This document shows positions 2,201-5,984 of a stretch of DNA of 64,000 nucleotides, in pieces. A program made the position numbers and the translations under genes. Origin of the DNA: Verrucomicrobiota bacterium (GTDB taxonomy: Bacteria; Verrucomicrobiota; Verrucomicrobiia; Verrucomicrobiales; DEV007); NCBI GenBank assembly GCA_020630975.1, contig JAHDID010000006.1, positions 1 to 64,000 on the forward strand, read 5' to 3'. Position 1 is the stretch's first letter, and every line of letters starts with the position of its first letter. The notes below the pieces were generated by a model. It was given only the letters and a program-made list of their open reading frames with translations. It was not told the DNA's origin and searched no databases.

Positions 2201-3634
2201 ATGAGCCATCTGCAACTTTTCGACAGCCAGACCCGCCAGAACCAGCCTGTGAAGCCCATCGAGGGCGATACCTTGGGCTTTTACTGCTGTGGACCGACTG
2301 TGTATGGCCCGGCCCACATCGGCAATTTCCGCACCTTTGTGATGCAGGATGTATTTCGCCGCGTCGCGGAGTCGACGGGGCTAAAGGTCCGCCATGTGCG
2401 CAACATCACCGACCTAGATGATAAAACGATCCGCCAGAGCCAGGAGCAAAGCATGTCGCTAGGCGACTTCACATCTGGCTGGACAGAGAAATTCCACGCC
2501 GACGCTGAGGCGCTAAATCTCCTGCAGCCCCACGTCGAGCCCAGCGCAGTCGAGCACATCCCTGAGCAGATCGAGATGATCGAGACGCTCATCGAGAAAG
2601 GCTATGCCTACGCCACCGACGAGGGCTCGGTCTACTTCCGGGTCGATTCTTTCGAGGACTACGGCCGTCTATCTCGGCTGAAAGAGCGCGAGATCACCAC
2701 TGGCACCGAGATCGCCAAAAGCGGCGGCTCGGTCTCCGAGCGGGAGGACTCCGATGAGTATGAGCGCGATTCGGCTGCTGACTTCGTCCTGTGGAAAAGC
2801 CGCAAAGACGAAGATGGCCCCAACTACTGGGACTCCCCATGGGGCGCAGGCCGCCCGGGCTGGCACCTAGAGTGCTCGGCCATGTGCAAAAAACACCTCG
2901 GCGATAGCTTCGACATCCACTCCGGTGGCGAGGATCTACTCTTCCCCCACCATGAGAATGAGATCGCTCAGAGCGAGTGCTGCAATGGCGCGACCTTTGT
3001 GCACCACTGGTTTCACATCACTCACTTGATGGTCGACGCCAAAAAGATGAGCAAATCGCTGGGCAATCTCTACACCCTCGCAGATCTGGATGAGAAAGGC
3101 CATTCTGCGGAAGTGGTGCGCTACGTCCTGCTATCGGGCAGCTACCGCCAGCAGCTCAACTTTACCCTAGACTCGCTCGATGCAGCAGGCAGTGCTCTAC
3201 GCAAGCTGCGTGACTTTCAGGAAAAACTCGGCGGCGAAGTCGCGCCCAATGCTGCAGCGAGCGCAGAGGCATTCGGCCCATTTCAACCGGTCCTCGACGC
3301 CCTCTGTCTCGATCTGAACACCGCCGATGCACTAGGTAAGCTATTCTCTATCGTCAAGACGACTCAAAAACAGCTCGACTCACTCAGCGATGACGAGCTA
3401 GAAGCAACACGACGCGGCTTCGCGCACAGCCTTTACGCTTTCGGTTTCTCACTAGCGGCGACAGACGAACCTGCTACCGACATCCCTGCCGAGGTACAAG
3501 AAATGGCCGAGCAACGCTGGCAGGCCAAAGCCGACAAAGACTGGGCCAAGTGCGATGAGCTGCGCGACCAGATCAAAGCCGCAGGCTGGGTGGTGAAAGA
3601 CTCTAAAGATGGCTTTGAGCTGGAGCCTGCTTGA
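2201..3634 (+). CDS. cysS: Cysteinyl-tRNA synthetase
   Basis: Class I aminoacyl-tRNA synthetase charging tRNA-Cys in the cytosol. Visible signatures are the zinc and ATP site region [19 protein letters not shown], containing the HIGH-equivalent HIGN; the central [19 protein letters not shown] and [10 protein letters not shown] segments that complete the zinc site; and the KMSKS loop in [11 protein letters not shown]. The roughly 477-residue length is normal for bacterial CysS. The ATG at 2201 ([11 protein letters not shown]) is chosen because the alternative TTG at 2162 adds 13 residues with no family match. It ends in TGA, so UGA is an ordinary stop in this genome. Confidence 0.97.
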
Positions 3635-3724: not shown

Positions 3725-4522
3725 TCACTCACTCGCACCAACCAGCTCCTCTAGCGCAGCCGTCATTTCATCTACTTTAAAACCTTTAGGCCCCTTCTCA
3801 CCTGTGTAGGCGACTGTGCCTCCAGCATTGAGGATGAACAATCGATCGGGATGGGCGTAGTAGGCTTTTGACACGCTGTTATCCATATCGTCGACGTACA
3901 GGGGCAGTTTTAGCCCTAGATCCTCGGCACAGTTTTTCGCCACCGCTATCCGCTCTTCCAGCGTGGTGTGCTCCATGATCTCGACAGTTTTGGATGGGCG
4001 TTTGTCATCGATGGCATGCGCCTCGGCGATATAGATCCAATAGAAATCGGCACGCTCTCCATAGGTCTCGTAGGCACTTTGCAGACTCCCGGCCTGCTTG
4101 CAGAATGGGCCTCAGGTATGGCTGCCAAATACCAGCACCGATATCTTCTCGGGCGAGGCTATGTCTACCATCTCGCCACTCCCGACCTGCTGTACTTTTA
4201 CCGCTGGAGCCTGGCTGCCTTCTTTGGGGGCATTATCGGGCTTTGCTTCACCTTTACCGCCTTTCCCCTTCCCCTTGGTCATCCCTTTACCTTTTCCTCG
4301 AGCCTTGGCCGCCTCCTCTTCGGTGATAGCGGAATCCTCGTCCAAGTCATAGCGAGTGAAGACATGATCAGGACCTGTGAATTCCTCTTTCGTCACCCGC
4401 CCATCGCCATCTTTATCGTAAGTCGATAGTCTATCCCAAGGGTTACGCTGCTGCTGGCTCAACCCCGAATAGGAAAGCACCGTACTGGCGCTAACGCATA
4501 AAAGACAAATCACTCTCTTCAT
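3725..4522 (-). CDS. Exported EF-hand/deiodinase-like selenoprotein (in-frame UGA)
   Basis: A single frame read through UGA at 4112-4114 gives about 265 residues. There is a signal peptide (MKRVICLLCVSAS...), two EF-hand loops (DKDGDGRVTKEEF and DLDEDSAITEEE), a Lys/Gly-rich linker and a thioredoxin-fold domain of the iodothyronine deiodinase family. Around the UGA the product reads VLVFGSHT-U-GPFCKQAGSL, with Sec at about residue 137, matching the deiodinase active site FGSxTU. Downstream, FYWIYIAEAHAIDD and VDDMDNSVSKAYYAHPDRL match the conserved EAHxxD and C-terminal segments of that family. A stem-loop just 3' of the UGA fits a bacterial SECIS. A cysteine four residues after Sec could resolve a selenenyl-sulfide. 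The bacterial substrate is unknown; deiodination is not claimed. Conventional callers would split it into two genes (3725-3976 and 4112-4540). A nonsense mutation of an ancestral Cys codon is the alternative. Confidence 0.8.
4081..4097 (-). other. Putative bacterial SECIS stem-loop
   Basis: On the minus strand, counting the U of UGA (4114) as 1, nucleotides 18-23 (GCAGGC) pair with 29-34 (GTCTGC), including one G-U pair, enclosing the loop CGGGA. Published bacterial SECIS models ask for a short stem, a G within the first two apical-loop positions and roughly 16-37 nt from the UGA; this hairpin satisfies all three. The folding was judged by eye and no energy was computed. Confidence 0.5.
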
Positions 4523-4569: not shown

Positions 4570-5292
4570 TTATTTATTAAAAGACCGCGGCTTCGAGTAG
4601 ATGGGATTGGGAAATGTCTCGCCGAATAGCACCGGCGGACTCTCTGGGTCTGGCTCGCGCCCTGCGATCTGCCAAAAGAGCTTGAACGGCATCGAGCACT
4701 GCACGCGGCGCTGACCTCTCGAATCGATCTTTGGGTTCACCACGATCTGACACTCGGTCTCCGGTAGCACCTCCTTTTTCCACAGCTGCGCCTGCACCCG
4801 GGCATCTTTGTAGTGAGTGTCCATGTCCTTCACCAATGCATCTAGCTCCTCCAACTGCTGCAAGCGAAGCCCGCCCCATAGCTGCCGCCAGCCTTCCGGC
4901 CGGATGTGTAGGCACGCGACCTCGACGATGTGTTTCTCGGTCTCGGTCTTCTGCAGCCAGAAGCCGACGATCATGAGAAACTCGTGATTCAGTTGGTGCT
5001 GACGGATGAAATCGCCCATCCCGATAGGGCTTTTGTACTTCACCAGCTTCACCGATATCGGGATACCCTGTTTCGGGGCAGCGGCACATTGATTGGCCTC
5101 GGCAGATATATCCCACTTCTGTGTGTACTCACCCTCGTAGCCATCAAAAAAAGTATCTCGCACCCACTCCTCGAAAGACACCCCGTGTGCCTGCACTTCC
5201 TCCGCTACGCATCTATGCTGAGACGGCAAATACCCGCACACAGCCATTAGCAGCAGAGGGATAATCGGTGTTCGCGTCTTGAGGACAATCAT
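4570..5292 (-). CDS. Putative exported protein, unknown function
   Basis: A 240-residue protein with an N-terminal hydrophobic signal (TPIIPLLLMAVCGYLPS) followed by HRCVAEEVQAHG, so cleavage or lipidation near the first cysteines is possible. The mature part has mixed alpha/beta character (QGIPISVKLVKYKSPIGMG, HEFLMIVGFWLQK) with an acidic, basic and aromatic mix, and no motif I recognise. It lies 86 bp downstream of the ECF sigma gene and 47 bp upstream of the deiodinase-like selenoprotein, all on the minus strand, so the three may be cotranscribed. Extracytoplasmic location is inferred from the signal alone. Confidence 0.65.
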   Translation of the reverse strand: MIVLKTRTPIIPLLLMAVCGYLPSQHRCVAEEVQAHGVSFEEWVRDTFFDGYEGEYTQKWDISAEANQCAAAPKQGIPISVKLVKYKSPIGMGDFIRQHQLNHEFLMIVGFWLQKTETEKHIVEVACLHIRPEGWRQLWGGLRLQQLEELDALVKDMDTHYKDARVQAQLWKKEVLPETECQIVVNPKIDSRGQRRVQCSMPFKLFWQIAGREPDPESPPVLFGETFPNPIYSKPRSFNK

Positions 5293-5378: not shown

Positions 5379-5984
5379 CTAGGCCAAAGACACACCCTGC
5401 CAGTCGGCACCCAGCTCAGCTTTGAGCAATTTCTTCGCACGATGGACTAGCACCCACAGATTGCTGCGCGAGATACCTAGCCGCTCGGTCACCTCATCGG
5501 TCGAGAGATCGTCGATCTGCCAGAGGCGAAAAGCTTCGCCCATTTTTTGCGGTAGCTTTTCGACAGCCCGATCCAGAGCCATCACGAAGTCACTGCGATC
5601 GACTACCGAGCTAGGTGAAAAATCTCTCCTTTCATCAGCCTTGCTATCCAGCCAGCTGCTGCCGCCATCCTCCTCTGCAGAGTCGAGCTGGCTAGCTACC
5701 ACCGAAGGGCGACGGCCGCGACTCCGGTAGTAGTCGATGATTTTGTTTCTCAAGATGCCTGAGAGAAAAGTCTTCTCAGAGCACTCACCTCGGAATCTAT
5801 CGTGCGCCTTCCAAGCCGCTACAAAAGTGTCCTGCACCAGATCCTCTGCCACCTCGTAGTCGTCCACCTTGCTCAGAGCGATATGCATGAGGTATCGACT
5901 GTATTCTGCCACCCAGCTTTGAGGATCCAACTGGTGCACTGCCTCCTTAGCGAAATCCGTGGTTGTTGCAGTGTTGTTATTCAT
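5379..5984 (-). CDS. ECF-type RNA polymerase sigma factor
   Basis: A 201-residue extracytoplasmic-function sigma-70 factor. Region 2 is visible in YLMHIALSKVDDYEVAEDLVQDTFVAAW with the core-binding and -10-recognition segment FLSGILRNKIIDYYRSR. Region 4 helix-turn-helix is in LPQKMGEAFRLWQIDDLSTDEVTERLGISRSNLWVLVHRAK. An extended, acidic inter-domain linker (about residues 95-130) is longer than in minimal ECFs. No adjacent anti-sigma gene was recognised; the next genes downstream encode an exported protein and the selenoprotein. A palindrome ACAGACCGGTCTGT lies 32-45 bp upstream of its start codon, so the gene may be repressed or activated through that site. Confidence 0.93.
   Translation of the reverse strand: MNNNTATTTDFAKEAVHQLDPQSWVAEYSRYLMHIALSKVDDYEVAEDLVQDTFVAAWKAHDRFRGECSEKTFLSGILRNKIIDYYRSRGRRPSVVASQLDSAEEDGGSSWLDSKADERRDFSPSSVVDRSDFVMALDRAVEKLPQKMGEAFRLWQIDDLSTDEVTERLGISRSNLWVLVHRAKKLLKAELGADWQGVSLA

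Follow-up and report, generated by a model that had tools for sequence, protein, structure and literature searches.

The gene considered here occupies positions 3725–4522 on the minus strand of the window (the whole 64,000-nucleotide stretch analysed, from a Verrucomicrobiota genome assembly of 7.1 Mb in 158 contigs, 96 percent complete). Translation with TGA as U, a match to Pfam PF00837, and comparison with homologues identify it as a deiodinase-like selenoprotein gene of 265 codons, running from an ATG at 4522–4520 to a UGA stop at 3727–3725, and the 265 residues of its product include a single internal UGA, at codon 137 (4114–4112, minus strand). The initial annotation, which did not state the strand, had described a single frame with one UGA at 4112–4114 and no other internal stop, together with three conserved segments (FGSHT-U-GPF, IYIAEAHAIDD, and VDDMDNSVSKAYYAHPDRL), all of which are found in the translation; its expectation that standard annotation would divide the gene in two is also borne out, as ORF calling yields pieces of 142 and 83 amino acids. 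Immediately upstream is a 240-amino acid minus-strand gene (4570–5292) with no Pfam match, and further upstream is a gene for a sigma-70-family factor (5379–5984).

Residues 100–259 (3746–4225, minus strand) constitute a predicted thioredoxin-fold deiodinase domain, matching the Pfam T4_deiodinase profile PF00837 with an E-value of 5.2e-32 (111.5 bits, cut-off 27), and at the sequence level the product also matches the proteins of the mouse Dio3 and Dio2 crystal structures (4tr3 and 9h48) with E-values of 1e-19 and 2e-16 respectively. UGA 137 aligns exactly with the selenocysteine (Sec) of the Dio proteins, and on the basis of this homologue column and the Sec machinery of the genome it is predicted to specify Sec at the Dio catalytic position. 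A single-sequence structure model of the selenoprotein has a pLDDT of 37 and is unusable.

The part of the protein preceding the domain has two recognizable features. The N-terminus (MKRVICLLCVSASTVLSYSGLS) resembles a signal peptide, judged by eye, with MKRVICLLCVSASTVLSYSGLSQ as the probable signal peptide (4454–4522, minus strand), and the selenoprotein is probably exported to the periplasm. This is followed by an EF-hand loop, DKDGDGRVTKEE, at residues 35–46 (4385–4420, minus strand), matched by PF00036 at 3e-06 (26.8 bits, cut-off 25.4), and by an EF-hand-like loop, DLDEDSAITEEE, at residues 60–71 (4310–4345, minus strand), recognized by eye and with a serine in place of glycine at loop position 6. 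Two EF-hand loops had been noted previously, and both are legible in the sequence, but only the first exceeds the Pfam cut-off. A search of the genome contigs for related loci gave an EF-hand match in Candidatus Zipacnadia and nothing else.

In protein and profile searches, at least 11 other genomes (G045, G027, G018, G060, G102, G104, G106, G107, G335, G436, and G311) have a homologue whose UGA falls in this same column, which aligns with the Dio Sec, and many other homologues have a cysteine there; the homologue alignment that had been proposed as a check thus places either UGA or Cys at the codon-137 position. Chance could not plausibly account for a UGA that coincides with the Sec of the Dio proteins and recurs in that column in other genomes. 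The G045 homologue shares 61 percent identity with the window protein, and in a maximum likelihood tree eight Sec proteins, including that of the window, form a single clade with support of 100/100. Sec is clustered on the tree, with 4 changes compared to 14.2 in shuffles, and animal DIO2 and DIO3 adjoin two EF-hand Cys homologues, a placement that is weakly supported (83/76). We also note that the UGA-containing homologue of G335 (L072) has its downstream part in another frame, reflecting either a frameshift or an assembly error, and that a Cys-form deiodinase-like protein (FGSLTCDQT) is encoded in the same genome as the window (L076, G000:C25:43682-44173). A second UGA-bearing group, with proteins of about 450–520 amino acids, is represented at L035, L036, L037, L040, and L071 and in other genomes; these combine a Redoxin/deiodinase-like domain containing FGCLT-U-PPF with a middle region and with EF-hands at the C-terminus.

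The fusion of EF-hands to the deiodinase-like domain had been regarded as unusual, and the homologues qualify this. EF-hand fusions are also present in Cys homologues, and a profile search gives no EF-hand match in two close Sec orthologues, those of G045 and G018, such that the EF-hands appear to be optional within the Sec clade. The NCBIfam profile NF038285 (deiodinase_rel, 347 positions) matches the window's domain at 144.1 bits, and because this is below its 250-bit cut-off the window protein would not be named by it; its match extends across the EF-hand region in two orthologues (L013 and L015), and the fusion is therefore not wholly new to the databases.

Sec insertion depends upon dedicated functions, and a search of the genome for selA, selB, selC, and selD, as had been suggested, finds all four: a tRNA-Sec (selC; 58.6 bits, cut-off 47) with a TCA anticodon according to ARAGORN, selB (272.6 bits, cut-off 242.25), selA (522 bits), and selD (301 bits). 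The selD gene (L045, G000:C77) is part of one 763-amino acid open frame, in which it is apparently fused behind a pyridine-nucleotide oxidoreductase or NADH-dehydrogenase-like part. The genome also has a second probable selenoprotein gene, fdhA (L078, G000:C93), encoding formate dehydrogenase alpha, a classical selenoprotein type, with one in-frame UGA in NCSRA-U-HAP. Hairpins with the loop GGTCT lie 24 nucleotides past the UGA in three members of the second group described above (L035, L036, and L071), and resemble the loop that follows the fdhA UGA in this genome. UGA is used as a normal stop too, ending both the selenoprotein gene and cysS (TGA at 3632–3634).

UGA-bearing deiodinase-like genes of either type, including the FGCLT-U-PPF group, are present in 19 of 96 genomes. 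Eighteen of these 19 are selA-positive, compared with 31 among the remaining 77 (Fisher p 1.4e-5, with genomes tallied by hand and related genomes not being independent). The exception, G027, lacks a selA match, is 83 percent complete, and has both selB and tRNA-Sec.

Two further properties of the coding sequence bear on how the UGA is read. Among four close homologues dN/dS is 0.22–0.34 upstream of the UGA and 0.07–0.15 downstream of it, and the downstream values indicate that the frame past the UGA is selected as protein. In addition, a putative bSECIS-like hairpin (GCAGGC-CGGGA-GTCTGC; 4081–4097, minus strand), with 6 bp and a 5-nucleotide loop, 20 nucleotides after the UGA, that has a G at position 2, is found at the corresponding position in six diverged genes, for which synonymous sites are nearly saturated in the five pairs measured. 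Over the six genes 32 of the 36 pairs are formed, whereas 5000 synonymous randomizations average 20.6 and never exceed 29; the position is the best among 288 loop placements, although it was spotted before testing and the 288-placement search corrects for that only in part. Compensatory changes, with both sides altered, are seen in three of the six hairpin pairs, and shifting the partner reduces pairing from 89 to 25–47 percent. Taken singly, the window sequence does not make the hairpin stand out (p about 0.15 relative to synonymous variants), and the 55-nucleotide fold has a z of +1.2; the case for the hairpin therefore rests on the six-gene comparison. The hairpin has the expected place soon after the UGA, a small loop, and a G near the loop start, and its significance is reached over the set and not in the single sequence.

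We conclude with high confidence that this is a genuine selenoprotein gene in which UGA 137, at the catalytic position, would encode Sec, and the earlier proposal to this effect is supported by the Sec machinery, the UGA/Cys column, selection past the UGA, and the covarying hairpin. The existence of Cys homologues lends some plausibility to the idea that an ordinary Cys member of the family acquired a nonsense mutation or was missequenced, but we regard either as extremely improbable, because the UGA recurs in the same column in the other genomes; the full Sec machinery, the purifying selection, and the covarying hairpins likewise speak against them. We found nothing to support the reading of the UGA as an amino acid other than Sec, through a changed genetic code or a suppressor, and reject it as scarcely credible given that the selenoprotein gene and cysS terminate in TGA, that the sole internal UGA falls on the catalytic column, and that the TCA-anticodon tRNA is tRNA-Sec.

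A comparison of the active-site residues with those of the animal enzymes reveals both shared and variable positions. In Dio2, residues Ser127, Thr129, Tyr157, Glu160, His162, and His182 have been proposed to form a proton relay or hydrogen-bond network (PMC11592359), and in our alignment the corresponding residues of the window protein are Ser134, Thr136, Tyr164, Glu167, His169, and His186; across the five orthologues of alignment A1 the first five do not vary, and three of the five keep His186. The position of the proposed substrate clamp of Dio3, Arg275, is occupied in five Sec orthologues by K (in the window protein), R, R, H, and I; the Lys of the window protein is the same as that of Dio2, yet the position is not conserved, and neither is that of Dio3 Trp207. 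In DIO1 a proximal cysteine (Cys124, at U-2) forms a selenenyl-sulfide and is needed for reduction of DIO1 by glutathione (PMC9141512); at this position there is a His in the window protein, and His or Tyr among the Sec orthologues.

A cysteine four residues past the U had also been pointed out, and while it is present (Cys141), it is not conserved, the residues at this position being C, C, V, T, and S in five orthologues, with Cys141 in the window protein and G045 alone. Because V, T, or S is found in the remaining orthologues, we reject Cys141 as a general partner of the Sec. Cys198, 61 residues past the Sec, is present in four of the five orthologues, with G045 lacking it but having Cys141, and Cys198 would thus be the better candidate.

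With the relay kept, the clamp arginine not conserved, the proximal Cys absent, and Cys198 mostly kept, we favor the view that the product may be a selenol reductase of the periplasm whose active-site chemistry is of the deiodinase type. UGA 137 would be decoded as Sec by SelB and tRNA-Sec, directed by the coding-region hairpin just downstream, with the final UGA serving as an ordinary stop, and the product would consist of a deiodinase-type thioredoxin fold and a short linker that carries two calcium loops of the EF-hand type. The Sec would be the attacking nucleophile, its selenolate taking an electrophilic atom (a halogen, a peroxide oxygen, or a disulfide sulfur) from the substrate, with a proton supplied by the conserved Ser134, Thr136, Tyr164, Glu167, His169, and His186. 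Because the window protein has a His where DIO1 and DIO3 use a proximal Cys, the oxidized Sec would be reduced by the distal Cys198 or by an outside thiol, and calcium may stabilize or gate the exported enzyme. We give this redox mechanism as a whole roughly an even chance of being correct; export, calcium binding, the resolving Cys, and the substrate class are what we infer from sequence, and calcium-dependent stability or gating through the EF-hands is a guess.

For the job of the enzyme, the possibility that it acts as a periplasmic peroxiredoxin-like or thiol-disulfide reductase fares best, and we consider it evenly balanced. The orthologues have secondary AhpC-TSA and Redoxin matches, there are ResA matches at low scores, the distal Cys198 is mostly conserved, and Cys homologues are numerous; however, the family keeps a deiodinase-type E-x-H and following loop that are absent from ordinary peroxiredoxins, and for the window protein itself AhpC-TSA scores below the Pfam cut-off. 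A peroxide or a disulfide would be a somewhat likelier substrate than an organohalide.

Reductive dehalogenation as the main role, with iodinated or brominated phenols or tyrosines as possible substrates as for the animal deiodinases, would be in keeping with the PF00837 match and the presence of all six Dio proton-relay residues, but we think it rather unlikely. Neither Arg275 nor Trp207 has a conserved equivalent among the orthologues, the proximal Cys is a His, the many Cys homologues hold most of the same network residues, and a different, redox function has been argued for the bacterial forms (PMC1088965). The neighborhood of the selenoprotein gene offers no hint of a substrate and has no adjoining halogen-related gene, and since the neighbors of the Sec homologues are not common to them, among the neighbors listed, we do not propose an operon. 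More speculative still is a lineage of exported, calcium-gated bacterial selenodeiodinases, in which the EF-hands would act as sensors of calcium, periplasmic or external, and activate a selenol dehalogenase whose task is to strip naturally occurring organohalides of iodine or bromine; we consider this improbable.

In relation to characterized systems, the window protein resembles DIO1–3, as judged from sequence, in predicted fold family, in the position of the Sec, and in the Ser/Thr/Tyr/Glu/His network; it differs in lacking the proximal Cys (a His here and an Ala in DIO2) and a conserved equivalent of Arg275, in having EF-hands and a probable signal peptide where DIO1–3 have a membrane anchor, and in having a putative SECIS of the bacterial type. 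Selenoprotein N (SELENON), located in a secretory compartment, is likewise a redox protein that has both a Sec and an EF-hand, but its redox domain is different and the likeness is one of analogy only.

Closer counterparts are bacterial. Sec- and Cys-containing deiodinase-like proteins with bacterial SECIS elements were described in 2005 from the Sargasso Sea (PMC1088965), in agreement with the earlier mention of marine metagenomes, and deiodinase-like bacterial selenoproteins with the motif UxxC are listed in reviews (PMC9312934, PMC13188914), the latter also giving PF00837. The window protein shares with the Sargasso Sea proteins the PF00837 domain, a Sec at the Dio position, a putative bacterial SECIS with a G in a small apical loop, and the existence of Cys homologues; it differs from the listed UxxC in having U-GPF-C (UxxxC), in which the Cys is not conserved, and it carries a probable signal peptide as well as EF-hand loops. 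None of these three papers uses the term EF-hand; they formed the scope of the comparison, with subscription literature lying outside it. Bacterial deiodinase-like selenoproteins are thus already known, and the addition here appears to be the calcium-binding-type loops.

The locus provides an example of a gene that is cut in two by standard annotation. Sequences of bacterial proteins of this kind were first recognized two decades ago, and this locus belongs to a genome in which the Sec machinery is complete, has close Sec and Cys relatives, and keeps a predicted proton relay without a conserved thyroid-hormone clamp; it would therefore offer a testable case of the role of this active site where thyroid hormones are absent.
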